DNA of 35,809 nucleotides, taken from Acidobacteriota bacterium (GTDB taxonomy: Bacteria; Acidobacteriota; Polarisedimenticolia; Gp22-AA2). The stretch covers positions 1 to 35,809 of the forward strand of contig JAGYID010000023.1 of the NCBI GenBank assembly GCA_018606725.1, written 5' to 3'. Positions 9,980 to 34,560 of this stretch are shown in pieces (the stretch's first letter is position 1; each line of letters begins with the position of its first letter). The translations under genes and the position numbers were made by a program. Under the pieces are notes generated by a model. It did not search any database and had not been told where the DNA came from. It saw only the letters and a list, made by a program, of their open reading frames with translations.

Positions 9980-11241
9980 GGCCGGCGGCCCCCGCCGTCC
10001 TCCGCGGTCTCCAGCCCCTGGAGCCTCGCCTCGGCATCGAGCAGGAAAGTGCCCTGCACCGCGACGCGCTCGCCGGCGGCGAGGCCGCCGAGGACCAGGA
10101 CCCGGTCGCCGGCGCGCATCCCGACCCGCACCCGGCGGACCTCGAACCGATCGTCGCCGGCCTCGACGAAGGCGACGCGGCGCTGCCCCGACTCGAGGAC
10201 CGCGGCGGCGGGGACGACGACGCCCTCCCCCGACTGGACCGGGATCTCGACCGCCACCAGCATGCCCGGCTTGAGGGCCAGATCGCGGTTGGCGCAGAGC
10301 AGGCGGACCTTGGTTGTGCGGCTCGCCTGGTCGAGGAACGGATTCACCTGCGCGATGCGCGCCGCCAGCACCACCGGCGGGTCGAGCGGCGGAATCACCG
10401 ACGCCTCGCGCCCCGCCCCGACGCCGGGCGTGTCGCTCTCGAACAACTCCGCCTCGACCCAGACCTCCCGCAGGTCGGTGATGGTCATCAGGTCCATCCC
10501 CGCCTCGACCTGCTGCCCTTCGAAGATCGGGCCGAGCTGCACGAAGCCGGCGGCGGGCGCCACGATCGGCACGACCGCGCTGGCCGTCCCCCGCCCCGCG
10601 AGCGCGTCGATGAAGGCGTCGCCGAAGCCGTAGCGCTCGATCCGGCGCCGCGCCTGCTCCTCGGACCGCTTCTCCGCCTCGGCGACCGCGGCCGGGCGCT
10701 GCAGCGCCTCACGCGTGCGCAGGTAGCGCAGGTACTCCTCCTGGGCCGGGACGAAGTCGGGGGCGTACAGGGTGAGCAGCGTCTGGCCCCGCTCCACCCG
10801 GCCGCCGGTGGCGCGCACCTCGAGCTTCTGGATGAAGCCGCCGAGGCGCAGCGTCACGTGCTGCACGCGTCCGGGGTCGGCGACCACCGTCCCCGGAACG
10901 CGCACGGTGCGGGTGACATGGCCGAGCGCGGCCGGCTCGGTCCGGATGCCGGCCATCCGTCGCGCTTTCGCCGAGACCTCGATCACCCGTTCGCCGCCGG
11001 TGGCCGGCTGAACGGCGTCGGCGTCTGCACCGGCGGCCGGCGGGCCGGCCTCATCCGCGACCAGCCGCATGCCGCAGACGGCGCAGTCCCCGGGGCGGTC
11101 GGAGACCATCGCGGGGTGCATCGGGCAGTGGTAGCGCGCGGCGGCGGGCGGGCCTCCGCCGATCCTCAGGAGGAGGGCCGCGGCCGCCAGGAGCAAGGCG
11201 CCGATCAACAGCGTGCGGCGCGTGGGAAGACGCAGGCGCAT
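9976..11241 (-). CDS. cusB: CusB-type periplasmic adaptor with N-terminal heavy-metal-binding domain
   Basis: A 421-residue membrane-fusion protein linking the RND pump to an outer-membrane channel. It has an N-terminal membrane anchor (residues ~10-27), then a short Cys/His/Met heavy-metal-binding domain (YHCPMHP with Cys39; CAVCGM with Cys53 and Cys56), then barrel-sandwich, helical hairpin (Glu/Arg-rich, ~165-205) and beta-barrel domains typical of CusB. The metal-binding domain may hand copper to the pump. It is translationally coupled to the pump gene (4-nt overlap). The gene starts 167 bp after the flavin oxidoreductase gene, with a strong inverted repeat in the gap, so it probably belongs to a separate transcript. 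Confidence 0.92.
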   Translation of the reverse strand: MRLRLPTRRTLLIGALLLAAAALLLRIGGGPPAAARYHCPMHPAMVSDRPGDCAVCGMRLVADEAGPPAAGADADAVQPATGGERVIEVSAKARRMAGIRTEPAALGHVTRTVRVPGTVVADPGRVQHVTLRLGGFIQKLEVRATGGRVERGQTLLTLYAPDFVPAQEEYLRYLRTREALQRPAAVAEAEKRSEEQARRRIERYGFGDAFIDALAGRGTASAVVPIVAPAAGFVQLGPIFEGQQVEAGMDLMTITDLREVWVEAELFESDTPGVGAGREASVIPPLDPPVVLAARIAQVNPFLDQASRTTKVRLLCANRDLALKPGMLVAVEIPVQSGEGVVVPAAAVLESGQRRVAFVEAGDDRFEVRRVRVGMRAGDRVLVLGGLAAGERVAVQGTFLLDAEARLQGLETAEDGGGRRP

Positions 11242-11408: not shown

Positions 11409-12767
11409 TCAGGCGGCGAGGCCCTTGAGCTTGGCCTCGGCCCGCGCTTCCTTGGTCAGGTCGCGGCTGCCGATGGCGACGCCCGCCTTCTCGAGGAATT
11501 CGTTGGGCGGCGTCCCGCCGGCGAAGATCCACACGTAGTCGTTCGGGATCTCCTGCACCTTGCCGGCGGCCTCGAGCAGGACCGACTTCGCGCGGATCTC
11601 GACCGGGTTCGAGCTGAAGACGACGCGGATGGTCCCCTTGCGCATGCATTCCTGGATGCGCTTCTCGTTGCGATCCTTGAGGCGGGAGAACGCGTCGCGG
11701 CGATACGACAGCGTGACCTTGTTGCCCTTCTGGATGGCCAGCCCCATGGCCGCCTCGACGGCGCTGTCCCCGCCGCCGACCACGAGAATCTGGGAGCCGG
11801 TGTAGGCGTCGGCTTCGATCAGGCTGTACATGACCTTCGAGAGCTGTTCCCCCTTGACCCCCAGCTTGCGCGGCGTGCCGCGCCGCCCCAGGGCCAGGAT
11901 GACGGCGCGGGCGCGGTACCGCCCCTTGGCCGTGGTGACCGTGAACAACCCGTCCTCGCCGCGGACGACGCCATCGACCTTCTCGCTGGTGCGGATTTTC
12001 AGGTCGGCGCGCTGCGAGATCTTGTTCCAGACAGCCAGCAGCTCCTCCTTGGAGATCTCCAGCTTGCGGAACTTGCCATAAAGCGGGATCTCCACCGGGC
12101 TGGTCATCACCAGCTTCTGGCGCGGGAACTTGGCGACCGTGCCGCCGAACTCGTCCTGCTCGAGAGTCACGTAGCTGACCTTGTTCTCGATGGCGCGCAG
12201 GGAGGCGGCGATGCCGCCCGGGCCGGCGCCGACGATGCAGACGTCGACGGCGCCCGGCGCCGGCGGCCGCGACAGGGGACGCGACAGGCGGCGGGTGATG
12301 GTGTCGATGACGTCGCGCCCCTGGTTGACGGCGTTCTTGATCAGCGCCAGCCCGCCGAGCTCGCCGATGATGAACAGGTTCGGGACGTTGGTCTCGAGCT
12401 CGGGTGTCAGGCGCGGCAGGTCGCTGGTGATGCTCGGGTCGGCCATGACGATCTCGATCGCCCCCACCGGGCAGGCCTCGGCGCACAGGCCGTGGCCGAT
12501 GCACTTGTGGCCGTTGACGATCGCCGCCTTGCCGGCGATCACCGCCAGGACATCGCCCTCGGGGCAGACCTCGGCGCACGAGCCGCAGCCGATGCACTTC
12601 GACACGTCGATGTGCGGATGCTGGGCGCGCGGCCCTTCGGAGCTCAGCTTGCCGCGCTTCGCCGCCTCCAGGGCACGGGCCTCCTTCTCCCGCATCTTCC
12701 TGATGTACGGGATCATGCAGGCCAGCAGGACGACGGCGAAGACGACGTAGGTGAGAATGTTCTCCAT
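11409..12767 (-). CDS. Membrane-anchored 4Fe-4S and FAD/NAD(P)-binding oxidoreductase
   Basis: A 452-residue fusion. Residues 1-20 form a single membrane anchor. Residues 52-107 are a 2x[4Fe-4S] ferredoxin domain: the first site is complete (Cys58, Cys61, Cys64, Cys68), while the second reads C-I-G-H-G-L-C with His92 in place of the second Cys (Cys89, Cys95, Cys99 kept). Residues ~125-155 (LFIIGELGG...NQGRD) resemble the C-terminal FAD-contact segment of thioredoxin-reductase-like proteins, here placed before the main fold. GAGPGG at 180-185 is the FAD motif and GGGDSA at 331-336 the NAD(P)H motif. No redox-active CxxC of thioredoxin reductase is seen. It lies 96 bp behind the outer-membrane barrel gene. 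It may pass electrons from NAD(P)H or a ferredoxin into the cytochrome chain. Confidence 0.85.
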   Translation of the reverse strand: MENILTYVVFAVVLLACMIPYIRKMREKEARALEAAKRGKLSSEGPRAQHPHIDVSKCIGCGSCAEVCPEGDVLAVIAGKAAIVNGHKCIGHGLCAEACPVGAIEIVMADPSITSDLPRLTPELETNVPNLFIIGELGGLALIKNAVNQGRDVIDTITRRLSRPLSRPPAPGAVDVCIVGAGPGGIAASLRAIENKVSYVTLEQDEFGGTVAKFPRQKLVMTSPVEIPLYGKFRKLEISKEELLAVWNKISQRADLKIRTSEKVDGVVRGEDGLFTVTTAKGRYRARAVILALGRRGTPRKLGVKGEQLSKVMYSLIEADAYTGSQILVVGGGDSAVEAAMGLAIQKGNKVTLSYRRDAFSRLKDRNEKRIQECMRKGTIRVVFSSNPVEIRAKSVLLEAAGKVQEIPNDYVWIFAGGTPPNEFLEKAGVAIGSRDLTKEARAEAKLKGLAA

Positions 12768-12867: not shown

Positions 12868-14591
12868 AACCGGTACGTCACCCCGGCGTAGCCCTGGTCG
12901 TTGTCCTGGAACGTGCCGGTGTACCGCTCCACCGACAGGATCATGTACCAGGAGCGCCCGAGCAGCAGGTCGACATCGAGCCCGTACCAGTCGTCGGTCC
13001 GGTCGAGGGTCGGGTCGTCGAGACTGGTCTCCTCCACCCGCCCGGCCGCCAGTTCCAGGTGGGCACGGCGTCCCAGATCGGTGCCGCCTGCCAGCGCGTA
13101 CATCCAGCCGTCGCTGCGGTCGTTGGTGTAGCGCGTGCCGCGGAGCGAGAACGACATGTTGGCGCGGCTGAGCCCGTCCCAGCCGAAGTTGCCGGAGTAG
13201 CCGTCGGCCCGTCCCGACGGGCCGCCGGTGACGACGCGGCCGTCGGCGCCGATCACGAAGTGCCGGCCGAACCGCAGCGTGCCGCCGGCCCAGCCGCCCT
13301 GGCGGTGACTGTCGTCGAACGCCGTGGCCGGCGTGACGCGATCCTGCCACAGCCGGATGCTGCGCCGGTTGTCGTAGCCGGCGTGCAGGGTGAAGCGCTG
13401 GCCGAGCCGGTAGTGCAGGACGGCGAACGTGCTGGTCGGGGCGACGGTGCTCTCGCCCGCCTCGCTGACTTTCCAGGACCGGTTGTAATCGACCTCCTGG
13501 GTGAGAAAGCCGCTCAGGCGCGGGCCGCGGTAGCGGGTCTGCAGATAGAACCACTCGCGGTTCACGTCCCCCTCGGCGTACGAGTCGATCAGCCCCATGG
13601 TCACCGCCCATTGCCGGGCGTCCATCGGCAGGCTGTGGACCGTGTAGTAGCCGCCGTACTCCTTGACGGTGCCGTCGACGCCGAAGTCGGCCGCATCCGG
13701 CTGCGTGCCGGCGAAGAATCCGCCGCCCCAGCGATCGCCGTCCAGATCGTAGACGACGCCGTCGAAGATGCTGACCGCTTCGAGGTTGGGCGCGAACTGC
13801 CGCCCGACGGTGAGCCTCTGGCGGGTATTCGGCAGGTGCCACGTGGCGGCGAGCCGGTAGACCTGGTTGAGGTGCTCGTCCTCCGAGCCCGCCCAGTCGC
13901 GGTAGGTCTGTCGCGCCCGGACGTCGACGTTGACGTCGAAATCGCTACCCCCCACGCCGGAGCCGTCGAGCCTCAGATCGAGCGCCGGCTGCGAGAAGCC
14001 GTTGTCCCCGCCGCTGTTGTCGCGGACCACCTGGTAGCGGACCCCGACCCGGCCGTGCAATCCGCCCCAGCCGCCCCGGCTGCGCGCCGCGGTCGCGGAC
14101 GACGCGGTCGCGCCCGCGCCGGCGGCGGCGCCGGCCGCCCCGCCGGTCGCACGGCCACCGGACGCGGCGCGCGGGACGTAGCGGACGAGATCGCCGACGA
14201 CGGGCGGGGCCGCGGCGTTGACGATGGCGCACGAGGCGCGGTGCTCGGACAGGAAGGAGACCCTGAGCGTCGCGATCGTGCGGCCGTCGCGGATGACCTC
14301 GACGACGTCCCCCTCGTGCAGGCCGTCCAGCCGTCCGGCGTCGAAGTAAAGCGACGCGGCGGTGATGTAGGTGACCCGGGCCGTGGCCGTCCCAGGCTTC
14401 GGGGCGGCGGGGCTTGCCGGGGTCGGGCTGGCCGCCGGCGGAGGCGTGGTGGTCGGGGGCGCGGCGGCCGGCGGTTGGCCGGGCGGCGGCGCGCCCTGCT
14501 GCTGGGCGACGAGGGGCGTCGCGGCGATGCACCCGAGGAGGACGATGGCCGCCGGCGACGGGACGAGGCGCGAACCCCGGCGCGCCGTCAT
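12864..14591 (-). CDS. Outer-membrane beta-barrel protein with N-terminal SH3-like domain, candidate cytochrome porin
   Basis: A 575-residue protein with a Sec signal peptide (MTARRG start, cut near PLVAQ, residue ~30). A Pro/Ala-rich linker follows (~32-70), then a small beta-rich domain (~72-145: LHEGDVVEVIRDGRTIATLRV...VGDLVRYVP) resembling SH3-like folds. From ~175 to the end, alternating amphipathic strands with many Tyr, Trp and Arg close with YRF; a terminal Phe is the outer-membrane assembly signal. The ATG at 14591 overlaps the TGA of the decahaem gene (ATGA), so the two are coupled. Being encoded with multihaem cytochromes, it is a plausible analogue of MtrB/PioB-type porins, although no sequence match to those families is claimed. 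Confidence 0.8.
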   Translation of the reverse strand: MTARRGSRLVPSPAAIVLLGCIAATPLVAQQQGAPPPGQPPAAAPPTTTPPPAASPTPASPAAPKPGTATARVTYITAASLYFDAGRLDGLHEGDVVEVIRDGRTIATLRVSFLSEHRASCAIVNAAAPPVVGDLVRYVPRAASGGRATGGAAGAAAGAGATASSATAARSRGGWGGLHGRVGVRYQVVRDNSGGDNGFSQPALDLRLDGSGVGGSDFDVNVDVRARQTYRDWAGSEDEHLNQVYRLAATWHLPNTRQRLTVGRQFAPNLEAVSIFDGVVYDLDGDRWGGGFFAGTQPDAADFGVDGTVKEYGGYYTVHSLPMDARQWAVTMGLIDSYAEGDVNREWFYLQTRYRGPRLSGFLTQEVDYNRSWKVSEAGESTVAPTSTFAVLHYRLGQRFTLHAGYDNRRSIRLWQDRVTPATAFDDSHRQGGWAGGTLRFGRHFVIGADGRVVTGGPSGRADGYSGNFGWDGLSRANMSFSLRGTRYTNDRSDGWMYALAGGTDLGRRAHLELAAGRVEETSLDDPTLDRTDDWYGLDVDLLLGRSWYMILSVERYTGTFQDNDQGYAGVTYRF

Positions 14592-15466
14592 GGCTTCTTC
14601 CCGTCCGGGTGACAGCTGTAGCAGGCGTCGCTGGTGTAGGTGTATCCGGCCACTCCGGAATGCTGGTTGGCCGTCTTGGTCGCGTCGTTGTGCGCGTGAC
14701 ACAGGATGCACGAGAAGGTCGTGTAGACGCCGGTCTGGTAATGGCAGTCGCTGCACGACGACCACTTGCCGCGGTGCGTCCCGGAATAGATCGGGAAGAA
14801 CAGCGGGTCATGGGCCGGGTAGCGCGCCGGCATCCAGGACATCTGGAAGTGGCACTGGGTGCAGTCCTGGGGGAACATGCCGGCCTGGTGATCCGGATTG
14901 GTGGTCGCGAGATAGTCGTTCAGGTGACAGTCGACGCAGTCGGTCCGCGTGTTGACATAGCGCAGGTGCCCCTGCGCCTGCAGCGGGTGGCAGCTGTCGC
15001 AGTCGGCGGCGAAGTGGGCGCCCACCAGCGGGAAACGGGTCAGGTTGTGCGCCCGTCTCATCCGCATCGGATCGATGAAGCTGCGGGCCGTGTGGCAGCG
15101 GGCGCAGTCGGAGCCGAGCTCGCCGTCGTGCACGTCCATGTGGCAGGCGACGCAGTCGACCTTGGCGTTGTCCTCGGCGAACTTGAGCGACTGATGGCAG
15201 GCGCTGCAGGACGCCGTCTTGTGCGCCCCTTCCAGCCGGAAGAATTTCGCGTGGTCGAACTTCGGGCTGACCTGCGCCGGTCGCCATCCCGTGGCGCCGT
15301 GACAGAGGCTGCACTCCTCGACGTACTTGCCGTGCGGATAAGGCGGCTCGGCGCTCGCGGCGGCGGCGCGCGCCGGCGGGGCGAAGACGCCCGCCGCGAT
15401 GATGACCGCCGCCAGCGCCAGCGCGGCCTGCACCGGTCTCGCGGGACGGACGATGGACCGGTTCAT
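14588..15466 (-). CDS. Ten-haem periplasmic cytochrome c
   Basis: A 292-residue protein with a Sec signal peptide (ALALAAVIIAAGVF, cut near PARA-AAA) and ten CXXCH motifs: CSLCH, CSACH, CVACH, CARCH, CDSCH, CVDCH, CTQCH, CSDCH, CILCH and CYSCH. Spacing is irregular, with extra His residues between sites (FDHAKFF, DVHDGE, RAHNLTRF) that can serve as distal ligands, as in c7/c3-like families. The ATG at 15466 overlaps the stop of the 23-haem gene and its own stop overlaps the start of the barrel gene, both as ATGA. A longer open frame upstream lacks haem motifs and is not coding. Its size and haem number match the periplasmic partner that enters a porin in known conduits such as MtrA. Confidence 0.92.
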   Translation of the reverse strand: MNRSIVRPARPVQAALALAAVIIAAGVFAPPARAAAASAEPPYPHGKYVEECSLCHGATGWRPAQVSPKFDHAKFFRLEGAHKTASCSACHQSLKFAEDNAKVDCVACHMDVHDGELGSDCARCHTARSFIDPMRMRRAHNLTRFPLVGAHFAADCDSCHPLQAQGHLRYVNTRTDCVDCHLNDYLATTNPDHQAGMFPQDCTQCHFQMSWMPARYPAHDPLFFPIYSGTHRGKWSSCSDCHYQTGVYTTFSCILCHAHNDATKTANQHSGVAGYTYTSDACYSCHPDGKKP

Positions 15467-17535
15467 GCGCGCCCCGCCTTCGCCCCCGGGATCCGCTCCC
15501 CGTGGCAGCTCTTGCAGTCCTTCGGGATGGGGCGGTAGATGACCAGCGCGCGGCCCGCGGCGTCTTTCTTCGTCGGGTGGCAACCGCTGCAGGCCACCTT
15601 CGCGTGCATCCCCTCCAGCGGGTACGCCGCATCGCGGTTGTGATCGAAGCGGATGGCCGGGCGGAACGTCAGGGCGCTGTGGCAGGCGCTGCAGGCGCCC
15701 TTGTCGCGGCGGGTCGCGAACTGCGTGCCGTGAGGATTCTGGTGACAGGCCTCGCATCGCTGGTCCTTGATCGACAACGGCATGGCGGCGGCCTGGCCGC
15801 GGACCAGCAGCAGGCTGGAGGCGGCGCGCGGCGTCTTCAGATCCTTGTGGCAGGTGTCGCACGGCGCCGCGCCATGCGCCCCCTCCAGCGGATAGCCGCA
15901 CGTCGCGTGGGCGGCCACGTCGATGGTCGACGGCCGGAAGCGGTCGGCATTGTGGCAGGCGACGCAGCCGGCCGGCCGGGGTCGCGCTCCCTTCGCCGCG
16001 AACCGTCCCTCGTGCGGATCGAAATGACAGGTCTCGCAGGCGATCTCCCTCAAGACGATCGCGACGCCGGCCTTGCCGAGGATGTCGTTGCCCGGCAGCG
16101 GCGGCAGGCCGGCGCGGTTCGGGCCGTGGCAGGCGGCGCAGGGGATCGTCCGATGGCGTCCCAGGAGCGGCAGACGCAGCTTGGCATGCTGGGTCACCGT
16201 GTAGGTGCTCGGCTTCCAGGCGTCGACGCGATGGCAGCCCTCGCAGGCGCCCCGATCCGGGCGCCGCGCCAGCTGGCCGCCGTGGTCGTCCCGATGGCAG
16301 TCGAGACACCGGGCATGCGTCATCCTGATCAGCACGCCGGCGGTGCCGAGCCGTCCCGGCGGCGCGCCAGCGGGCTCCTTGCGATGACAGGCGTCGCAGC
16401 GGGTCGTGCGGTGCGCCCCATCCAGCGGGTAGGCCGCGGCCTTGTGCAGCTCGACCGTGTAGGTCGAGGGCTTCCAGCCCTGCACGTCGTGGCAGGCGGC
16501 ACAGTCGACGATTTTTCCCAGGAGCGTCGCCGTCCCGGCGTGCGCGTCGGCGTGGCAGGCGGTGCAGGTCTGGAAGGCCGGCTTCTTCCCCCACGCCTTG
16601 ACCGGGTCGTGACATTGCCCGCACTGCAGCGGCACGTGCTTGCCGCGCAGCGGATAGCGGGTCAGGTCGTGGTTGAACGATCCCTGCGGGACGCGCTTCC
16701 AGTCATCGGTCACGTGACAGCGCGCGCAGGTCGGCCCGAAACGGTTGGCGTGCGGGTCGGCGTGACAGGCGGTGCATTCCTTGTGCGGCAGCGGCTTGTA
16801 CAGCGGCACCCGGTTCCCCTGCTTGTCGACCTGGAGCTTCAGCGTCGGCGCCAGGTGGCACTTGTCGCACGTCACCTTCCCGTGCCGGCCGGTGAGGGGG
16901 TAGTCGGTCCTGGCGTGATCGAAGGTGGTCGCCGGCTTCCAGACCGACACGCCGTGGCATTTGCCGCAGTCCTTGCCGAGTGCGCCGCGATGCACGTCCT
17001 GCCGCGCGTGGCAGGGGACGCAGCCGCGGTCGAGACCGATCCAGGTGTCCGTGTGATCCTTCCCGGGCGCGAGCCCGATGACCGCCGGGTCCAGGAATGC
17101 CGGCTTGTGGCAGTCGCGGCACTTGGCCTGCGCGTGCTTCCCTTCCAGCGGCCACTTGGTGCGCTTGTGATCGAAGCGCTCGGGGCTGCCTTCCTCCCAG
17201 TTGATCATCTCGAAGTCGAGGCCGGCGTGATCGGGGTGGCACTTGGCGCACTCCGCCTTCGGAACATTGCCGTGCAGACCGACGCCGCGCTCGACGATCG
17301 AGGCGATCTCCTTGTGGCAGGCGAGGCAGCGATCCGGCAGCGAGCCGCCGCCTTGGCCGCGCTGGCCGTGGCAGTTGAAGCACTTGAGATTGCTGTCGAG
17401 CTGCTGGTGCGGCCGCGCCAGAGGTCCCGGCGACACCTGGGCGCGGGCGGCGGTCGCGTGGCTCATGAGGATCGCCCCGAGGAGGACCGGCAGGAGGCCG
17501 AACGCCCGTCGTCCTGTTGCGCCGGCCTCACGCAC
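15463..17535 (-). CDS. 23-haem secreted cytochrome c
   Basis: A 690-residue protein with 23 CXXCH sites, from CFNCH to CKSCH. The signal peptide (FGLLPVLLGAILM, cut after ATAARA) directs it through Sec. A repeating unit of 50-70 residues recurs along the chain: F-x-H-x-x-T-x-YPL-x-G-x-H, then C-x-x-CH, then CHADxH-x-G, then a C-x-x-CH followed by W-KP. This suggests growth by tandem duplication. The start is GTG at 17535, chosen because GGAGGGA lies 5 nt upstream; an upstream ATG at 17622 would overlap the previous gene. It follows the cytochrome-b-like gene by 43 nt and overlaps the decahaem gene. It may sit in the periplasm or on the cell surface as a long electron wire. Confidence 0.93.
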   Translation of the reverse strand: MREAGATGRRAFGLLPVLLGAILMSHATAARAQVSPGPLARPHQQLDSNLKCFNCHGQRGQGGGSLPDRCLACHKEIASIVERGVGLHGNVPKAECAKCHPDHAGLDFEMINWEEGSPERFDHKRTKWPLEGKHAQAKCRDCHKPAFLDPAVIGLAPGKDHTDTWIGLDRGCVPCHARQDVHRGALGKDCGKCHGVSVWKPATTFDHARTDYPLTGRHGKVTCDKCHLAPTLKLQVDKQGNRVPLYKPLPHKECTACHADPHANRFGPTCARCHVTDDWKRVPQGSFNHDLTRYPLRGKHVPLQCGQCHDPVKAWGKKPAFQTCTACHADAHAGTATLLGKIVDCAACHDVQGWKPSTYTVELHKAAAYPLDGAHRTTRCDACHRKEPAGAPPGRLGTAGVLIRMTHARCLDCHRDDHGGQLARRPDRGACEGCHRVDAWKPSTYTVTQHAKLRLPLLGRHRTIPCAACHGPNRAGLPPLPGNDILGKAGVAIVLREIACETCHFDPHEGRFAAKGARPRPAGCVACHNADRFRPSTIDVAAHATCGYPLEGAHGAAPCDTCHKDLKTPRAASSLLLVRGQAAAMPLSIKDQRCEACHQNPHGTQFATRRDKGACSACHSALTFRPAIRFDHNRDAAYPLEGMHAKVACSGCHPTKKDAAGRALVIYRPIPKDCKSCHGERIPGAKAGRA

Positions 17536-17540
17536 TCGAT

Positions 17541-17547
17541 TCCCTCC
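17541..17547 (-). promoter_or_regulatory. Ribosome binding site deciding the 23-haem cytochrome start
   Basis: GGAGGGA on the minus strand, 5 nt before the GTG at 17535. The only upstream ATG in frame (17622) lies inside the preceding gene and would add about 29 residues before the signal peptide. Confidence 0.65.
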
Positions 17548-17555
17548 AATGAACC

Positions 17556-17582
17556 CGGCCGAATACTCGGACCGGCTCCTAG
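17556..17582 (-). repeat. 27-nt repeat copy 2 (at the stop codon of the cytochrome-b-like gene)
   Basis: This copy is nearly identical to 12841-12867 (two differences). On the minus strand CCGG-T-CCGA pairs with TCGG-CCGG around GTAT, giving an 8-bp stem with one bulged T just after the stop codon and before the ribosome site of the 23-haem gene. Confidence 0.75.
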
Positions 17583-18562
17583 TGGAGCCAGGTGACCCCG
17601 AGGGCCACCGCCGTGACGACATGCACCGCCACGGCGATGAGGGCCGTCACCGCCACCGGCCGGTGGGCGACGTGCCAGTAACGGAACACGCGCTGCGTGG
17701 CGTCGAGCATCCGGACCTGCTGGCTGAGCGCCATCTGCCGGCGCGCCAGCCGCAGCACCAGGGAGATCACCTGGCGATCGACCGGCCGCCCGCCGCGCAT
17801 CGCGCCCCGCAGGCCGCGGCGCAGCTTCCGGGCGGCGCGGAAACGGTCGAAGTCGTCGCGCATCATCCGCCACATCGTCCGCATCGGCCCCAGGCCGGTG
17901 TAGGGGCTGGTGTCGACCGCCAGCAGGCGGTCGACGACCTCCGGGGCGACCCCCGTCGAGTCGGCGATGTAGCGCTGCAGAGCGGTGCGCTCGCCGTTGA
18001 CCTCCTCGAGACCCAGCTCCAGACCGCTGCGGCTGCGCGGGATGCGGGCGTAGAGGTACTTCCCGACGATGCCGCTCAGGCAGACGATGAGCATCGAGCC
18101 GTAGCCGAGGCCGATGACGCCGGTGAAGTGCCAGGCGGCGTGGATGGCGGCGAGGAACGGGATGCAGATCCCGGCGACGATGTGCACGTCGAGCCAGCGA
18201 CCGAGCGAGCCGGTGAAGGCGAGCCAGCGGATTTTCTTGCGCAGCGGGTAGAGCCAGAGAAACAGGAACAGAGCCATCGACAGGAAGCCGGCGGTCTGGC
18301 CGACGTAGCCGGTCGGCTTGAGCCACGGATGGAACGGGCTGCGGACGCGGGCCGCCGACGGCAGCGTGTAATACGGCAGGCCCATGGCATTGACCGCCCC
18401 GAGGATGACGAGGAGCGCCAGGGTGATCCGGCGGCCGGTGCGGGGCGCGCTGTTCTCGGCCGGCGCCATCGTCGGTCTAGCGCCGGGACGATGCGGCGAT
18501 TTCGCAGTCACCGCGCCGCCGGACGCCGACGGAAAATTCATCCTGTTCGCTGGTGCGCCCAT
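17579..18562 (-). CDS. Cytochrome-b-like dihaem membrane protein
   Basis: About 327 residues, with roughly five membrane helices and a ~125-residue polar loop before the last helix. Two helices carry histidine pairs 14 residues apart: His127/His141 (in DVHIVAG...AAIHAAWH) and His300/His314 (in VAHRPVAVTALIAVAVH). This is the spacing of the bis-His ligands of two stacked b haems in cytochrome b and related quinone-linked proteins. I do not recognise a named family. It is first in the operon with the 23- and 10-haem cytochromes, so quinol:cytochrome c exchange is a reasonable guess. The start is uncertain: 18562 has AGGAGG 12 nt upstream, while 18469 would give a tighter 296-residue protein without a clear ribosome site. 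Confidence 0.8.
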   Translation of the reverse strand: MGAPANRMNFPSASGGAVTAKSPHRPGARPTMAPAENSAPRTGRRITLALLVILGAVNAMGLPYYTLPSAARVRSPFHPWLKPTGYVGQTAGFLSMALFLFLWLYPLRKKIRWLAFTGSLGRWLDVHIVAGICIPFLAAIHAAWHFTGVIGLGYGSMLIVCLSGIVGKYLYARIPRSRSGLELGLEEVNGERTALQRYIADSTGVAPEVVDRLLAVDTSPYTGLGPMRTMWRMMRDDFDRFRAARKLRRGLRGAMRGGRPVDRQVISLVLRLARRQMALSQQVRMLDATQRVFRYWHVAHRPVAVTALIAVAVHVVTAVALGVTWLH

Positions 18563-18773: not shown

Positions 18774-19277
18774 TCAGGCGCCCGGTTTCTTCTCCGGAGC
18801 GCCGGACGCGACCACGAGGCCGCCCACGCTGCGGTCGCCGACGACCAGGGTCACCTGGTCGCCCGGCTGGACGACGCCGGGGTTGTGGAACAGCAGGGTG
18901 TAGATGTGCCCGGCCACCGGCTGCATCGTCCTCTGCCGCAGCGCCCCGGCGTTGGAGTCCGGGACCGCGAGCAGCTGCGCCGTCCTGTCGACCAGGAGAT
19001 GAACCGGATCCCTCGAGGCGCGCCCGAGAAGGGGCAGCGACTTGTCGGGGTCGATGACCCGGACGCGCAAATCCAGCATCAGGCCGCCCGCGGTCGTCCG
19101 CAGCGCGACGATCTGCACGCCGAGATCCTCCTGCTTGATGTGCCGGCGCGACCCGCCCTGTCCCATGCCCGGAACGTGCCCGGACGGGGCCGTCGCGTCC
19201 GCCGCGGCTGCGGCGCCGCCGGCGCAGGCGAACACCGCCAGAAGCGCCGGCAGGACCCTCGACAGCCGCGAGGTCAC
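18774..19277 (-). CDS. Small secreted protein of unknown function, last gene of the copper-oxidase operon
   Basis: A 167-residue protein with a Sec signal peptide (VLPALLAVFACAGGAAAAA). The mature part is one compact beta-rich domain with LGVQIVALRTTAGGLMLDLRVRVIDPDKS and YTLLFHNPGVVQPGDQVTLVVGD. It does not match a family I can name. It has no Cys in the mature part and one HNPG motif that could be a loop near a ligand. The GTG start overlaps the TGA of the preceding oxidase-like gene (GTGA), so translation is coupled. It is probably a partner or chaperone of the oxidase-like proteins, which is inference from position only. Confidence 0.75.
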   Translation of the reverse strand: MTSRLSRVLPALLAVFACAGGAAAAADATAPSGHVPGMGQGGSRRHIKQEDLGVQIVALRTTAGGLMLDLRVRVIDPDKSLPLLGRASRDPVHLLVDRTAQLLAVPDSNAGALRQRTMQPVAGHIYTLLFHNPGVVQPGDQVTLVVGDRSVGGLVVASGAPEKKPGA

Positions 19278-20833
19278 GGACCGACCGTGCCGCAGAAATT
19301 CACCGCCGCGACCCTGAAGTAGGCGGTGCCGGACGGCACCGCCACCACCGTCGGAATCGCGGTGACCCCCAAAGCGTACGGGGTCCACGGCCCGGATGGC
19401 GTGGCGCTGATATAGACGATGTAGGACACGGCGCCGGCGGCCGGGCTCCAGCCGATCACCAGCCCGTCCCGGGTGGCGGAGAGGATCCCGAATTCCTTGC
19501 GGGCCACCGTGAGCCCCGTGACCTCGGCGGGAGCGACATCGGCGACCACCTCGAGGACGGCGGGCGGCGCCAGCGTGTCGGTGACCGCCGGCCCGCCGGG
19601 GCAGGTCACGTCCACGGTGTAGGAGTAGGCCCCCGCCGGCTGCGCGACGTCGTAGTTGACGCCGGTGGCCGCCGCGATCGGCGCCCCCCCCAGCCTCCAC
19701 TGGTAGGTCGGGGTCGAGGTGCAGCCCAGGACCGTGGAGCGCGATGCGTCGAGGCGCCGCACGTTTCCCGCACAGTATCGCGCCGGTCCGTCGGCCTGGA
19801 CATGCGCCTTCACGACCGTGCCGCTGGCGGGCGACACCTCGATGAACGCCAGGATGCCGCCCGGGAAGGCGCCGGCGTTGGTGACGTTCAGGCGCCGATC
19901 GTAGAAGGCATAGAGGCCGGCGGTCGCCGGCCGGATCAGGATGTCGAGGGTCTGGCCCGCCTCCAGCGACTCCGAGACGCGACCGGTGCGGGGGTGCCCG
20001 AGCAGATTGCCGTCCTGGGCAATCACGTCCATCCGCGTCCCCTGCAGCTCCATGCTGTGGGTCTGCAGTCCGGCGTTGATCAGGCGGATGAGCGTTGTCT
20101 CGCCGGCGCGTCCGCCGGCGAACGGCGCGTACGGGTCGGTGTACGGCCGGTCGTTGACCAGGAAGTACTTCGGATGGTAGTCGATGGTGCTGGTCACTTC
20201 GCCCGGCAGGGCGGTCTCGGGTGTCTTCTCGGGAGCGTACTTGCCCTGCGCCACGGTGTCGTGGAAGACGGGGTCGATCTCGCTCACGAGCATGACGACC
20301 TCATGGTCGTAAGCGCTCGCCGGCGCATCATAGGCCCGGCCGGCGGTTGCCGGCCGTACCACGATCGCTCCGAACAGGCCCATCTGCACCTCGAGCGAGG
20401 GGTCGGTGCCGCTTTCGTACAGGAACGTGCCGGGACGCACGCCCGTGAAGGTGTACGTGGCCGGCCCGCCGGCCGGCGCCGCCTCGTGGGTGAAGGAGAC
20501 GACCCGGGTGGGAGTGCCGGAGTCGAACACCGGCGAGAGGGTCGCCGGAAGGCCGGCCACAACCAGGGACACCGGCTTCGCAAGATTGTTGGTCAGGTTG
20601 ATCACCAGCGTCGTGTCGCCCGCCGGCACCTCGAGCGTCGGTCCGGGGATCGTCACCGGTCCGCTCCCCAGCGCGAATCCCCACACGGGGATGACGCGGC
20701 CGTCCGGCATCGTCACGCTCCCGTAGTCGGCGCGGAGGTTGTAGGTCACCGCCCGCGACAGCCCATGGAACGACAGAGTCAGGACTGCCGCGACTGTCAG
20801 AACCCGAAGTCGTCTTCCGTGACAGAGTCTCAT
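19274..20833 (-). CDS. Multicopper-oxidase-like protein C with degenerate copper sites and an FN3-like tail
   Basis: A 519-residue exported protein. Residues ~25-320 are two cupredoxin domains laid out as in a two-domain multicopper oxidase. The copper ligands are nearly all missing: the place of HWHG reads NNLAKPVSLVVAG, the place of HCH reads FLYESGTDP, and domain 2 keeps a single His in QTHSMELQG. A PKD-like stretch (~345-410) and an FN3-like domain (~430-519, ending FRVAAVNFCGTVGP) follow. It is unlikely to be an oxidase on its own and may be a structural subunit or binding protein. GAGGGGA lies about 8 nt before the ATG. It starts 22 nt after gene B and is coupled to the small secreted gene downstream. 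Confidence 0.85.
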   Translation of the reverse strand: MRLCHGRRLRVLTVAAVLTLSFHGLSRAVTYNLRADYGSVTMPDGRVIPVWGFALGSGPVTIPGPTLEVPAGDTTLVINLTNNLAKPVSLVVAGLPATLSPVFDSGTPTRVVSFTHEAAPAGGPATYTFTGVRPGTFLYESGTDPSLEVQMGLFGAIVVRPATAGRAYDAPASAYDHEVVMLVSEIDPVFHDTVAQGKYAPEKTPETALPGEVTSTIDYHPKYFLVNDRPYTDPYAPFAGGRAGETTLIRLINAGLQTHSMELQGTRMDVIAQDGNLLGHPRTGRVSESLEAGQTLDILIRPATAGLYAFYDRRLNVTNAGAFPGGILAFIEVSPASGTVVKAHVQADGPARYCAGNVRRLDASRSTVLGCTSTPTYQWRLGGAPIAAATGVNYDVAQPAGAYSYTVDVTCPGGPAVTDTLAPPAVLEVVADVAPAEVTGLTVARKEFGILSATRDGLVIGWSPAAGAVSYIVYISATPSGPWTPYALGVTAIPTVVAVPSGTAYFRVAAVNFCGTVGP

Positions 20834-20855: not shown

Positions 20856-22127
20856 TCAAGGTATGGGCACCCAGGGCGCTTCGATCGCCAGCATGGTCAT
20901 CATCCCGCCCGGGAAGTCGTTCAGGTTGGTCATCTCGTTCTCCCGGTGCGAGTGCCACATGTAGAAGAAGGCGCCGGTCTGGTTCAGGCCGGGATGGTCC
21001 GGCGGCAGCGGCCCGGTCTGCCCGAGGAGCGGGCTGCCGCTGTAGAGATCGCCGTACTGCAACGAGGTCAGGTAAGGAGTCTGGGTCGGGATCGCCTTGC
21101 CGTGGTCGGGCGCGTACTCGCCCACCTGCATCGGGTCGCCGGGCGCGTGTCCGTAGACGTCCCAACCGAGGTTGTCGGCGCTCCAGGTGAACAGGCCGTC
21201 CCAGGTCTGCCCGGAGCCGGCCGGCACCGTGAAGTGGAACTCGGCGAGATCGGCTCCCGCCGCGCCGCCGGTCGACAGCAGCCGCCCGTCCCGGCCGACC
21301 GCCAGCACGTGGTTGCCGTGCGTGTGGAACGGGTGAGGGTCCCGTCCCATGTTCAGGACGCGCAGCAGGATCGTCTCCCCCGGATGCATGCTGACCATGG
21401 CGCCGTACGGCTGGTTCGGGAGCCACGGAACGTTGTCCTCCGACATCGTGTCGGTGGCGCTCCGGCCGTTGATGAACCAGTAACCGGCAATCCAATCAGT
21501 GCTGTCGAACGACAGGCCGCTCTCCGCCGCCGTGCTCAGCCGGTGGTCCAGGTCGGCCAGGAGCAGGAGGTACTCGCGGTCGTAGGCGGTTGCCGCGTCG
21601 GCATAGGCCTGGCCGGCGATGGGCGGGCGCACGATGATGGCGCCGTACAAACCGAGCGGGATCTGCTTATCCAGGTGCGTGCCACTCTGGTAGTAATAGG
21701 TGCCCGGCGCGCCGGCCGTGAAGGTGTAGGTCCTGGTGCCGCCCGACGGCGCCGCTTCCTGCGCAAGGGAGCGCAGCCGGCCGTTCGCGTCGTAAACCGG
21801 CTGCGTCGGCCCCTCCTGCCCCGGGAACACCAGCGACACCGGCTCGGGGAGCATGTTGGTCAGGTTGATCGTCACCATCGTCCCCTGGCTGAGGATGAGG
21901 GTCGGGCCGGGCAGCTGCACCTCGCCCGTCCCGCCGTCGTCGGCGAGACCCCAGAAGTAGATGTAGCTGCCGTCGGGGTTGGCGAGGAAACCGTCCCTGG
22001 CCGTGAAGTTGAACGTCGTGCCGGTGATGCCGGAGATGGCCGCGCTCGCCGGTGCGGCGCCCCCGGCCGCGGCAAGCACCGCGACGATCAGGGCGGCCCG
22101 GGCGAATCGGAACGCTTGTCGGTCCAT
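20856..22127 (-). CDS. Multicopper-oxidase-like protein B carrying only the domain-2 ligands
   Basis: A 423-residue exported two-domain cupredoxin protein with a Sec signal peptide (ALIVAVLAAAGGAAPASA). Domain 2 carries HPFHTHGNH (His265, His268, His270, His273) and WHSH (His392, His394), the places where multicopper oxidases bind the type 2/3 copper cluster. The type 1 Cys is Ser393, so no blue copper is expected here. Domain 1 lacks the HWHG and HxH ligands (MLPEPVSLVFPG; YYYQSGTHLDK). Alone it holds only half of a trinuclear site. TAGGAGG 7 nt before the ATG fixes the start, and the stop codon of gene A lies within that ribosome site. It is very likely in one operon with A, C and the giant gene. 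Confidence 0.88.
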   Translation of the reverse strand: MDRQAFRFARAALIVAVLAAAGGAAPASAAISGITGTTFNFTARDGFLANPDGSYIYFWGLADDGGTGEVQLPGPTLILSQGTMVTINLTNMLPEPVSLVFPGQEGPTQPVYDANGRLRSLAQEAAPSGGTRTYTFTAGAPGTYYYQSGTHLDKQIPLGLYGAIIVRPPIAGQAYADAATAYDREYLLLLADLDHRLSTAAESGLSFDSTDWIAGYWFINGRSATDTMSEDNVPWLPNQPYGAMVSMHPGETILLRVLNMGRDPHPFHTHGNHVLAVGRDGRLLSTGGAAGADLAEFHFTVPAGSGQTWDGLFTWSADNLGWDVYGHAPGDPMQVGEYAPDHGKAIPTQTPYLTSLQYGDLYSGSPLLGQTGPLPPDHPGLNQTGAFFYMWHSHRENEMTNLNDFPGGMMTMLAIEAPWVPIP

Positions 22128-22137
22128 GTCTGGCCTC

Positions 22138-23385
22138 CTACGGCGCCGAGACGCGGATCTCGGTCATCAGACCGCCGCGCGCCTGCCGGTAGTTGTTCAG
22201 GTCATTCAGGTTCCGGGAGTAGACGAAATACGTCCCGGGCGCCACATCCTTGGTGTCCAGGATGACGTCGTACGCCTCACCGCCCCCGAACGTGATCGAG
22301 TTGGCCATGTACGACATGTCGGCGCCGGTCGGGCCGCGCAGCAGCTTCGCGTCCTTGGCCACCACGCGCATCGGGATGCCGAGCACCTGCACCGTGTGAT
22401 GGGCGTTGGTCGAGACGTTGGACAGGCGCAGCAGGATCCGGTCGCCCTTGACGGCCTCCACGAGGGAGTGGATCGGCTGCCGGAAGCCGCTCACCTCGTT
22501 TTCGATGCCGGCCGGGCTGGTGTCGATGGTGTCGGGATACCCGCGGCCGTTGAACAGCGGATAGCTCGAACGGCTGTTGTAGAACGGATCGGGCTGCACG
22601 TTCATGAACACGTCGTGGAAGTAGCGATCGAAGTCGATCACTTGAAGGGCCGCCTCGACGTTGTACCCGGTCCGGCCGTCGCCGTCGTTGTAAGCGAATT
22701 TGTTGTAATGCCGGCCGCTGCCGGTGGGGTACTCCTTGTCGGTGCCGTTCTGCGCCGGGCGGACGTACAGGTTGCCGATCATTCCGAGCTGGATGTGCTC
22801 CGGCGCCTCGAAATGGCAGTGGTAGAAGTAGGTCCCCGGCCGCACCGCCTGGTACCAGTAGGTGAAGATCGTCCCGATCCTCGGCGCCGGCGACACTTCC
22901 GGCACACCGTCGTGAATCGCCGACTGCTCGGGGAAGCCGTGCCAGTGCACGGTGTGGGCGTCGTCCACGTCGAGCCTGACGAGGAAGCCGGTGTTCCCGA
23001 GGTTGAGGTACAGCTCCTGGCCCTCGTCGAGGAAGATGTTCGGCGCCGGCGCGTTGGCCGCGAGCGCACCGTAGCTCTGGGCCTGCTCTTCGGGGAGCGC
23101 CAGCGGCACCGGGCTGAAACCGAACATGTAGATGGTGTAGCCGTCCGCCATCCTCACGAAGCCGTCGCCGCCCTGGATCCACATGCAGACGGCGTTCGGA
23201 TCGACGTCGAGGACGCCGTTGCCGTTGTGGTCGATGTCCCCTGGCCCCGGAAAATCGCCGGCCGGATCCTTGTCGATGTCGTTGGGGCACTGCAGCTGGT
23301 TGACGGCCGCCGCCGCTCCCGGCAGCGCGAGGCACAGGAGGAACAGCCCCAGCCCCAGGCGGGTCATCGCCGTTCTCGTCCTCAT
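22138..23385 (-). CDS. Multicopper-oxidase-like protein A with type 1 copper and the domain-1 cluster ligands
   Basis: A 415-residue exported two-domain cupredoxin protein (signal peptide LGLGLFLLCLALPGAAAA). Domain 1 has HTVHWHG (His144, His147, His149) and YHCHFEAPEHIQLGM (His189, Cys190, His191, His197, Met202): a full blue type 1 site (His144, Cys190, His197, Met202) plus the domain-1 half of a trinuclear cluster. Domain 2 keeps only AHHTVQ (His329, His330), and the expected second HxH is replaced by FVYSRNLN. This resembles the class of two-domain oxidases with type 1 copper in domain 1, but is incomplete. The start at 23385 is preferred because AAGGAGGAG lies at 23395-23403; an ATG at 23427 overlaps the giant gene's TGA and is an alternative. 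Confidence 0.88.
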   Translation of the reverse strand: MRTRTAMTRLGLGLFLLCLALPGAAAAVNQLQCPNDIDKDPAGDFPGPGDIDHNGNGVLDVDPNAVCMWIQGGDGFVRMADGYTIYMFGFSPVPLALPEEQAQSYGALAANAPAPNIFLDEGQELYLNLGNTGFLVRLDVDDAHTVHWHGFPEQSAIHDGVPEVSPAPRIGTIFTYWYQAVRPGTYFYHCHFEAPEHIQLGMIGNLYVRPAQNGTDKEYPTGSGRHYNKFAYNDGDGRTGYNVEAALQVIDFDRYFHDVFMNVQPDPFYNSRSSYPLFNGRGYPDTIDTSPAGIENEVSGFRQPIHSLVEAVKGDRILLRLSNVSTNAHHTVQVLGIPMRVVAKDAKLLRGPTGADMSYMANSITFGGGEAYDVILDTKDVAPGTYFVYSRNLNDLNNYRQARGGLMTEIRVSAP

Positions 23386-23423: not shown

Positions 23424-31259
<7,836 letters not shown>

Positions 31260-31264
31260 GTCTG

Positions 31265-31272
31265 CCTCCTCC
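31265..31272 (-). promoter_or_regulatory. Ribosome binding site deciding the giant gene start
   Basis: GGAGGAGG lies 5 nt before the ATG at 31259, immediately ahead of a typical signal peptide. In-frame sequence extends upstream to 31370 but lacks such a site and would bury the signal peptide. Confidence 0.7.
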
Positions 31273-31426
31273 AACAGCGCCAGACGACGCGCGGCCTGCC
31301 GGCAGCCGTCCGACACCCCACCGGTCCGCGGGTATCCTGCGCAGGGCGTCGTCGCGCTTTGCGGCGCCACGCCGGGCTTTCGAACCTTCCCTGTTCGGCG
31401 ATGTAAAGATAAGGGGCGGGCGATCC

Positions 31427-31752: not shown

Positions 31753-32457
31753 CTACTTCTGGGCGGCGTCGTGGGCGAGCGCCCAGCGGATCGCGAACTG
31801 CACCAGCTTGCGGGTGTCCCTGAGGTTCAACTTCCCTTTGATGTGCGCCTGATAGGTCTCGATGGTCTTGATGCTCAGATGGAGCTTCGCGGCGATCTCC
31901 TGCGCTCCGAGACCGGCGCCGATGAGCAGGAACACCTCGAGCTCGCGATCGCTCAGGCAGCCGACCGGCGAGTCGGCCCCGTCGCCGGGCTCGCCCGAGA
32001 GCAGCTTCTTCAAGAGAGTCGGCGACAGCCGATCGCTCAGGTACACCTTCCCTTCCAGCAGGGCGCGGATGGCGATCAGCACCTTGTCGCTCGCCTCCCC
32101 CTTGGTGAGATAGCCCCAGGCGCCGGCGCGCAGGGCGCGCTCGACGTAGTACGACTCGTCGTGCATCGACAGGACGAGCGCCGCGATCTGCGGATACTCG
32201 GCGCGCAGCCTCTTGATCAGGTCGATGCCGCTGCCCTTCTTGAGCGACAGGTCGACGACGACGACGTCGGGCCGGCGCGTCCTGATCTGCTCCCAGGCGC
32301 CCGGCTCGTCGGCCGCCTGTCCGCACACCAGCAGATCGGGCTGCGCGTCGATCAGCGCGGCCAGACCCTGGCAGACGATCGGATGATCGTCCACGAGCAG
32401 CACCTGGGCGCGCGTCCCCGCCGGCCGCATCCCCTCGCGTTCCTCGGGCTTCATCAT
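31753..32457 (-). CDS. NarL/LuxR-type response regulator
   Basis: A 234-residue two-component regulator. The receiver domain (residues ~17-130) has the acidic pair in LLVDDHP, phosphoacceptor Asp69 in VVVDLSL, Ser in VLSMHD and Lys in YLTKGE. The C-terminal LuxR-type helix-turn-helix (~165-225) has LSDRELEVFLLIGAGLGAQEIA and HLSIKTIETYQAHI. The start ATGATGA overlaps the kinase stop, so the two are coupled; GGGGGAGA lies just upstream. It is the first regulator upstream of the giant and copper-oxidase operon and the most likely controller of it, though no binding site is proven. Confidence 0.94.
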   Translation of the reverse strand: MMKPEEREGMRPAGTRAQVLLVDDHPIVCQGLAALIDAQPDLLVCGQAADEPGAWEQIRTRRPDVVVVDLSLKKGSGIDLIKRLRAEYPQIAALVLSMHDESYYVERALRAGAWGYLTKGEASDKVLIAIRALLEGKVYLSDRLSPTLLKKLLSGEPGDGADSPVGCLSDRELEVFLLIGAGLGAQEIAAKLHLSIKTIETYQAHIKGKLNLRDTRKLVQFAIRWALAHDAAQK

Positions 32458-34556
32458 CCCGTTTCTCCCCCCTCTCCATGGAACCGGCAGGCGACGACGG
32501 TCCCGCCTTCGGGCGGCGCCGCGATCTCGAGGACGCCGCCGATCGCCCCGGCGCGGTAGCGCATCGAGCGCAGGCCCATGGTGTCGCCGTCCGGCGGCTG
32601 GCGCGGAAAGCCGGTTCCGTCGTCGGCGATCGTCAGACTGTTCTCGTCCCCCTCGCGTCCCAGCCGGATGGTGATGCGTTGCGCCTTGCCGTGCCGGAGC
32701 GAGTTGCTGACCGCCTCCTGGGCGATGCGGAACAGGTGCGTCGCCCTGGCGCGGTCGAGATCGGTCGTCCGGACGCCCCCTTCGACGCGGCAGGCCACCC
32801 CGAACAGCCGCTCGACGTTGTCCGCCAGCGCCTCCAGCGCGCCGCGCAGTCCCTCCTTGTCCAGGTCGATCGGTACCAGCCCGCGGGCGAGGACGCGCGT
32901 CTGCTCGATCGCCTCGCCGATCAGGGTCTTGATCCGCTCCGCATCGTCGGCCTCGCGCAGATCCTTGTCCGCCAGCTTCTGTTGCAGCCCTTTGCTGAGG
33001 AGGGCGGTGCCGGTCAGCACCTGCCCCAGCCCGTCGTGCAGGTCGCGGCCGATCCGCTCGCGCTCCAGCTCCGAGACCTCGACGATTTCCCGCTCGAGGC
33101 GCTTGCGGTGGGTGATGTCGGTGGTGATGACCGTGACGGCGACCACCTGGCCGTCGCGCTCCACCGGCCCGATGCGGGTGGCGTACCACGCCGGCCTGCC
33201 CTCGGGCCCGATGCCCTCGAGGTCGAGGCTGGCGGCCTCGCCGCGCTCAAAGACGCGCTCGAGCGCCCGGCGAAACGCCTCGTGATACGCCGGTGCCACG
33301 TAGTCGAAGGCGCTGGTGCCGACGACCTGCTCGACCCGGAAGCCGGTGATCACCCGGTTGATGAACAGGATCGTCCCCCGGCCGTTGACGGTCATGATGA
33401 TGTCGGGGGCGTGCGTGACCAGGGCGCGCCAGTGCGCCAGCGACGCCTCCTGCTCCTCCAGCACGTGCGCCAGCTCCGAGGCCATGGCGTTGAAGGCGCG
33501 GGCGAGCTTGCCGAACTCGTCGTCGTGCCCCTCCTCGACCCGGTGAGCCCGATCCCCCCGCGCCAGCCGGCCGGTGCCCTCGATCAGGACCCCCAGCCTC
33601 GCGGTGATGCTGCGGGCGATGGCGAAGGCGGCGCCGGCCGCCAGCGCCAGGCCGAGGACCGCCGACGACAGGACGGCGACCACGAAGATGCGCACCACCT
33701 GGAACGCCTCGCTCGTCCTCCACAGCGCGACGAGGTGCAGGCCCTGCGCCGGCGCGCCGGGGTCCGGGATGGCGCCGGTTTCGGTGACCAGGTAGCCCGA
33801 AGCCGCCCGCAGGGCTCCCGGCGAGCCCCCGTGCAGGACGACGCGCCCCGCCGCGGCGATCGAGTCGGGCAGCTCATCGACGAATTCCGGATGCCCCGCC
33901 AGCACCGCGCCGTCCGGCCCGGCGAGCAGGAAGAACCGCCCGTTGTCCTGGGCGCTGCCGCCCAGCATCGCGCCGGTGACGATGTCCTCGAGCGGCCCCC
34001 AGCTCACGGTGGCCACCAGCCAGCCGATCGGGTCGGAATGCAGCCGCGACACGACGGGCGCCGCGATCATGAACTGGCGCGCTGCTGCGGCGCCGGCGGC
34101 CGGGAACCCGCCCATCGACACGCCGGTCCCCGGGTGCGCGTGCAGCGCCGCCTCGTCCAGCGGCCCGTGCCCCCCGATCCGGTCGACGTCGGTCGCGGCG
34201 ATGACCGTCCCGGAGCGATCGAGCACCGCCAGGGCGCCATACTGCCGCGGCCGCCCGCGCTGCAGCTCGAGCAGAAGATTCTCGATGTTGAGGAACCGAT
34301 CCTGCACCAGGACCTCGTCCATGATGGAGAGCCCCGCCCACGACTTCACTTCCCGGCAGCGATCCTCGAGGTAACGATTCACGTCGTCGAGGACGTCCTC
34401 GGCCTGCCCCGTCAGGCTTTCGGTCACCAGCGTCTCGATGGCGCCGCGGCCCGCCAGGATCGCCTGCCAGGTCTCGACCGCGAACGCCACCGCCACGACC
34501 AGGAAGAAGGCCGCGAACAACTTGAAGAACAGGCTCCGCGAGCGCAGCCGGAACAC
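32454..34556 (-). CDS. Membrane sensor histidine kinase (Cache-like, HAMP, PAS, HisKA_3)
   Basis: A 700-residue kinase. One membrane helix (~10-27) is followed by a ~250-residue extracytoplasmic sensor of double-Cache type (two YGALAVLDRSGTVIA / FFLLAGPDGAVLAG sheets), a second helix (~288-316), a HAMP linker, a PAS domain (~375-485, ITHRKRLE at its end), a HisKA_3 dimerisation domain with His507 in RERIGRDLHDGLGQ, and an ATPase domain (QEAVSNSLRHG, DDGTGF, GLRSM). It should phosphorylate the coupled LuxR-type regulator. The start is GTG at 34556, 4 nt after the previous gene's stop, with GGAGA upstream; an ATG at 34604 would overlap that gene by 44 nt. It probably senses a small extracellular molecule, perhaps presented by the upstream binding protein. 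Confidence 0.92.
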   Translation of the reverse strand: MFRLRSRSLFFKLFAAFFLVVAVAFAVETWQAILAGRGAIETLVTESLTGQAEDVLDDVNRYLEDRCREVKSWAGLSIMDEVLVQDRFLNIENLLLELQRGRPRQYGALAVLDRSGTVIAATDVDRIGGHGPLDEAALHAHPGTGVSMGGFPAAGAAAARQFMIAAPVVSRLHSDPIGWLVATVSWGPLEDIVTGAMLGGSAQDNGRFFLLAGPDGAVLAGHPEFVDELPDSIAAAGRVVLHGGSPGALRAASGYLVTETGAIPDPGAPAQGLHLVALWRTSEAFQVVRIFVVAVLSSAVLGLALAAGAAFAIARSITARLGVLIEGTGRLARGDRAHRVEEGHDDEFGKLARAFNAMASELAHVLEEQEASLAHWRALVTHAPDIIMTVNGRGTILFINRVITGFRVEQVVGTSAFDYVAPAYHEAFRRALERVFERGEAASLDLEGIGPEGRPAWYATRIGPVERDGQVVAVTVITTDITHRKRLEREIVEVSELERERIGRDLHDGLGQVLTGTALLSKGLQQKLADKDLREADDAERIKTLIGEAIEQTRVLARGLVPIDLDKEGLRGALEALADNVERLFGVACRVEGGVRTTDLDRARATHLFRIAQEAVSNSLRHGKAQRITIRLGREGDENSLTIADDGTGFPRQPPDGDTMGLRSMRYRAGAIGGVLEIAAPPEGGTVVACRFHGEGGETG

Positions 34557-34560
34557 GTCG

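Follow-up and report, generated by a model that had tools for sequence, protein, structure and literature searches.

Can the active site of a multicopper oxidase be divided between two genes? This question is raised by an acidobacterial contig of 35,809 nucleotides (hereafter the window), in which two neighboring genes, A and B, encode secreted proteins of two cupredoxin domains that each carry only part of the expected copper ligands. An initial annotation made from the sequence alone had proposed that domain 1 of A and domain 2 of B meet to rebuild exactly one trinuclear copper site. We found that the division of ligands is real and strictly kept across many phyla, and that A, B and a third paralogue, C, likely form a heteromeric oxidase related to type C two-domain enzymes.

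A gene set with three cupredoxin paralogues

The open reading frames of A and B lie on the minus strand where the initial annotation had placed them (Table 1), and G+C at third codon positions reaches 0.92 in both, a strong coding bias. On this strand the genes run in the order G, A, B, C, D. A, B and C each contain Pfam Cu-oxidase domains; B shares 39% identity with C, and the A-B-C set is single-copy in the window's own genome.

Table 1. Features of the window discussed in the text
Feature	Position	Strand	Description
Gene A	22138-23385	-	415 aa; secreted two-domain cupredoxin protein (open reading frame, Pfam); domain 1 with complete type 1 Cu site (H144, C190, H197, M202) and half of trinuclear site (H147, H149, H189, H191); domain 2 ligandless
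Gene B	20856-22127	-	423 aa; secreted two-domain cupredoxin protein (open reading frame, Pfam); domain 2 with other half-site (H268, H270, H392, H394), H265 and H342 also conserved; domain 1 ligandless
Gene C	19274-20833	-	Third paralogue; two cupredoxin domains; no conserved copper ligands
Gene G	23424-31370	-	Giant secreted protein; SdrD_B, beta-helix, TSP3, Cu-binding MopE motif
Gene D	18774-19355	-	Small secreted protein, no Pfam family; coordinates are those of the open frame, exact start uncertain
PAS/HAMP sensor histidine kinase	32454-34604	-	Upstream of giant gene G; possible operon regulator
Ferric-reductase-like cytochrome b	17579-18460		Weak match
Two multihaem cytochromes c in series	14591-17622	-	23 and 10 CXXCH motifs
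Membrane 4Fe-4S/NAD(P)H oxidoreductase	11412-12767		
RND pump (ACR_tran) and HlyD-type adaptor	6719-11241	-	Adaptor with heavy-metal-binding domain; CusAB-like

Complementary ligand sets are invariant in A and B

The initial annotation had assigned to A a domain 1 with type 1 and first-half trinuclear ligands and a domain 2 without the matching HxH pair, and a full listing of histidines and cysteines upholds this assignment and its residue numbering. Its description of B as the mirror image, with HPFHTHG and WHSH in domain 2, serine in place of cysteine and a domain 1 without ligands, also held.

Alignment of homologous loci demonstrates that A residues H144, H147, H149, H189, C190 and H191 are kept in 53/53 rows covering the region and H197 in 54/54 rows covering that position; the type 1 ligands H144, C190, H197 and M202 are invariant in all rows that reach them, and neither B nor C has a type 1 site. 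B residues H265, H268, H270, H392 and H394 are kept in 62/62 aligned rows, and the last motif is nearly always WHSH, in which S393 occupies the cysteine position. The 62 B rows correspond to about 56 distinct B genes, and both alignments include a few overlapping copies. Across the same loci we detected no conserved ligand histidine in A domain 2, no conserved histidine in B domain 1, and no conserved ligand histidine anywhere along C. The histidines H329 and H330 in A domain 2 are replaced by F, Y or Q in relatives, are not conserved and fall out of HxH register. Together A and B hold the eight histidines of a trinuclear site, four in A domain 1 and four in B domain 2, with none contributed by C. 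Chance or a frame artefact can be ruled out as the source of this split because homologues are conserved in many phyla and third-position bias is strong.

Two further histidines outside the predicted copper site are nearly invariant, B H342 in a DHGK insert and A H257 in an FDxxFH motif of the linker, and these perhaps mark a second metal or substrate site.

A and B correspond to opposite halves of a type C site

Among solved structures, A is closest to two-domain enzymes, the type C multicopper oxidase of Nitrosomonas europaea (3g5w) and a metagenomic laccase (2zwn), and profile comparison returns the same two structures as the best solved relatives of B. In profile alignments A domain 1 matches the domain of 3g5w and 2zwn that carries the type 1 site and the HxH/HCH motifs, and A domain 2 matches the second domain of 3g5w with non-ligands at the HAIHTHG and HDH positions. 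The HPfHtHG motif of B falls on HAIHTHG of 3g5w and on HAMHSHG of 2zwn; WHSH falls on FHDH of 2zwn as a weak local match only. Because these alignments put the retained motifs on opposite half-sites, A and B represent complementary halves of a type C site.

Two-domain multicopper oxidases are trimers in which trinuclear ligands are supplied by two protomers, and type C enzymes carry the type 1 site in the N-terminal domain (PMC13151041). A homotrimeric two-domain oxidase has a trinuclear copper site at all three interfaces between domain 1 and domain 2. A and B meet the type C features of two cupredoxin domains per chain and, in A, an N-terminal type 1 site, and share with 3g5w and 2zwn the paired motifs HxxHxHG / HCH...H...M and HxxHxHG / HxH. 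The feature they lack is the presence of all eight trinuclear histidines on each chain: type C enzymes have both half-sites on one chain and are homotrimers in their solved forms, whereas here two gene products carry one half-site each and a third paralogue carries neither.

Other known copper proteins fit less well. Copper nitrite reductase (NirK) has a type 1 site in domain 1, a type 2 copper completed by a domain 2 histidine, and no trinuclear site; this identity is not met, as A domain 1 has the full HxHG and HCH motifs and A domain 2 has no conserved histidine in HxH register. Identity with six-domain oxidases such as ceruloplasmin and MnxG is likewise not met, as A, B and C are three separate open reading frames. 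Six-domain enzymes resemble the arrangement we propose in that their six cupredoxin domains form a ring with one asymmetric trinuclear site, but they are single chains with type 1 and trinuclear sites placed differently. MofA and OmpB oxidases are extracellular, large, tied to metal redox and adjoin mofC-like cytochrome genes (PMC5566968), but are single polypeptides.

A, B and C occur as a unit across phyla

B homologues with 41-49% identity over the best segment occur in named metagenome-assembled genomes (MAGs) and one isolate spanning Myxococcota, Nitrospirota, Acidobacteriota, Desulfobacterota, Planctomycetota and Lentisphaerota. Among sampled genomes they are present in 13/396 Acidobacteriota, 13/297 Desulfobacterota, about 12/198 Nitrospirota, 5/237 Myxococcota and 2/246 Planctomycetota, and some of the bacteria that carry the split set are iron-cycling. 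A search of viral contigs revealed no relative.

Conserved adjacency of A and B had been named beforehand as a check of the proposal, and their independent occurrence in most genomes as its refutation. Adjacency is conserved at all loci with upstream DNA: A lies directly upstream of B on the same strand in 55/56 distinct B genes, and in the one exception (L038) B begins a contig and A sits on another contig of that genome. At two loci (L057 and L098) an automated count misses the A gene owing to overlapping open frames, and A is present beside B. C lies downstream of A-B in 55/56 distinct sets. The refutation was not met. A reciprocal search with A in Acidobacteriota returned the same genomes as the B search plus one (G136), in which A without B ends at a contig edge, and on Paraburkholderia and Cupriavidus megaplasmids the eight records with B are the same eight with A. 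Independent occurrence is thus rejected for genomes of several phyla and for plasmids, the exceptions (L038, L042, L116 and G136) all being contig ends.

Two layouts recur across annotated loci, G-A-B-C-D and A-B-[C fused to G]-D, and the recurrent order is seen in Acidobacteriota, Nitrospirota, Desulfobacterota, Myxococcota, Planctomycetota, Lentisphaerota and Burkholderiales. G adjoins the set wherever the DNA extends far enough; in L043 and L049 it forms a fusion with A, and in Burkholderiales-type clusters with C. Among annotated loci these G-A and C-G fusions are the only ones, with no fusion of A to B or of B to C.

Gene D is kept downstream of C, or of C+G, in both layouts, and with its homologues is a candidate assembly factor or additional subunit. 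A subtilisin-like Peptidase_S8 gene follows D at five loci from several phyla (L037, L040, L042, L045 and L047) and may process the giant protein.

Could A act on its own as an electron carrier of the blue-copper type, with B serving separately in metal binding or structure and no trinuclear site between them? In favor of this reading, A has a complete type 1 site, assembly is not shown, and a fused structural model (below) gives no A-B interface. However, electron-transfer cupredoxins need no H147, H149, H189 or H191, yet these residues are kept in every A row (53/53), the four partner histidines are kept in every B row (62/62), and A and B are strictly adjacent and co-occur. We consider this explanation very unlikely.

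Evolution of the three paralogues

We constructed a maximum-likelihood tree of A, B and C by quick search, with SH-aLRT support only and the root not determined. A, B and C each form one branch (SH-aLRT 100, 99 and 98), and the same main subfamilies recur within each clade; the set was therefore inherited or moved as a unit. Ordinary two-domain multicopper oxidases encoded by a single gene, whose one chain holds both half-sites (L080, L081, L082 and L135), place among or near the A, B and C clades. We infer triplication of a homotrimeric oxidase followed by complementary ligand loss as the simplest origin, while the root remains undetermined.

A compact, distant pair of genes in the order B'-A' shows the same ligand split (L062:5840-7881 and L120:318-2676). 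A' carries HxIHLHG and HCH...H, and B' carries HYHG or HFHG with HTH or HIH in domain 2. This pair is rare in Acidobacteriota, and no third paralogue was recognized beside it (in L062, within 14 kb). It could represent an independent or an ancestral form of the split and, because it has the split without a recognized third gene, the site itself may do without C.

A putative heteromeric oxidase with a single trinuclear site

Together, the motifs, their invariance, the synteny, the clades and the homology to solved type C enzymes are shown. From these data we propose that A, B and C likely constitute a type C-like heteromeric multicopper oxidase with a single A:B trinuclear site, most probably as an A-B-C ring; assembly, stoichiometry, oxidase activity and substrate are inferred, and there are no biochemical data. 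Points for a heteromer are the invariant complementarity, strict A-B adjacency, co-occurrence in genomes and megaplasmids, and the G-A and C-G fusions.

In this model, paralogous two-domain subunits of type C layout would join as a heteromer, and complementary ligand loss would leave all eight histidines together only at the interface of A domain 1 and B domain 2. The type 1 copper of A would take up electrons from an extracellular donor, and these would run along Cys190 and the His189/His191 pair to the single A:B trinuclear site, where O2 would be reduced. C would be the metal-free occupant of the third ring position, and G, sometimes fused to A or C, would probably fix the heteromer to the cell surface or to mineral. 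Surface anchoring is suggested by the domains of the giant protein (SdrD_B, beta-helix and MopE, with cadherin-like domains in Paraburkholderia) and by its fusion to A or C.

Every sequence test applied supports the rebuilt A-domain-1 : B-domain-2 site that had been proposed; physical assembly is not shown. Structure prediction of A with B, made on a fused chain, neither supports nor refutes the interface. The AlphaFold2 model used the L040 read-through chain, with A and B in one frame and the A stop read as Ser, and an alignment of 22 rows including L044, the subset placed correctly by MAFFT. It has a pLDDT of 76 and a pTM of 0.48; the folds are right, the arrangement of A relative to B is not resolved, and the region around B WHSH lies mostly below a pLDDT of 60. 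Foldseek best matches are factors V/VIII and ceruloplasmin (E 1e-27 to 1e-30) with an rmsd of ~30 Å, which leaves the positions of A and B relative to each other unreliable. The window A modeled alone was poor (pLDDT 53) and was left out of interpretation.

A second alternative keeps the shared site and changes the assembly: A and B would form a heterodimer or another stoichiometry, and C would be an accessory paralogue, such as a scaffold or a partner of G, outside any ring. C has no conserved ligands and is fused to G in one branch, and the compact pair in L062 has the split with no third gene recognized in 14 kb. Against this, C is a homologous two-domain protein beside almost every A-B pair, and solved two-domain enzymes are trimers (PMC13151041). 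We regard this reading as unlikely and favor the A-B-C ring.

A bolder version of the ring model, which as a whole we lean slightly against, holds that the set is an obligately heteromeric cell-surface multicopper oxidase whose three paralogous chains form one adhesin-tethered ring with one trinuclear site. Under the same joint estimate, it would descend from a homotrimeric type C oxidase that was triplicated and whose copies then lost ligands in complementary fashion, and the giant adhesin tether would let the type 1 copper exchange electrons with minerals. If true, the set would form a natural intermediate between two-domain oxidases that are homotrimers and six-domain oxidases of the ceruloplasmin type, a living and testable example of a long-proposed step. 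To our knowledge, the trinuclear site of every known multicopper oxidase is built by a single chain or by copies of the same chain. A conserved site existing only between two different gene products would, if confirmed, be a clear example of complementary loss turning a symmetric homomer into an asymmetric heteromer, and an oxidase annotation given to either gene on its own probably misleads.

Related clusters and redox surroundings

Sideroxydans lithotrophicus ES-1 encodes three tandem cupredoxin/multicopper oxidase genes, Slit_1816-1818 (He 2017, PMC5566968; Keffer 2025, PMC12016527), that are raised on magnetite; two have canonical multicopper oxidase motifs and the third is larger and adhesin-like, and similar clusters occur in Burkholderiales, Anaeromyxobacter and Steroidobacteraceae (Keffer 2025, PMC12016527). 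SCO and cytochrome genes lie near Slit_1816-1818. Burkholderiales loci match this cluster in layout; the Paraburkholderia locus L065 has A, B, C+giant, D, a LolA-like gene, an unknown gene, and a cytochrome c with a periplasmic binding domain; no Pfam match to SCO was found in L065. We infer from layout alone, with no sequence comparison, that Slit_1816-1818 and the A-B-C sets belong to the same family. The initial annotation knew of no oxidase divided in this way, which holds in part: the gene clusters were already known from He 2017 and Keffer 2025, the split active site is not described there, and the literature we searched held nothing relevant on split or heteromeric multicopper oxidases. 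Within that literature the split active site is the new part, and it turns an uncharacterized magnetite-raised cluster into a concrete biochemical hypothesis.

A third alternative reverses the electron flow, with the complex passing electrons to extracellular Fe(III) or Mn(IV) as proposed for Geobacter OmpB. The set is present in lineages that reduce sulfate and metals, among them Desulfoferrobacter and Geobacter MAGs, and in the window it adjoins the 23-haem and 10-haem cytochromes c, the ferric-reductase-like cytochrome b and the NAD(P)H/FeS oxidoreductase (Table 1). However, the multihaem genes are not conserved neighbors at other loci, the Sideroxydans cluster, which shares this layout, is raised when magnetite is being oxidized (Keffer 2025, PMC12016527), and O2 chemistry is implied because the trinuclear site is conserved. 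We judge a reductive direction unlikely, and the multihaem cytochromes are rejected as part of the system, since they do not accompany other copies of the set. The CusAB-like pump and adaptor pair also lies near the copper-protein cluster of the window.
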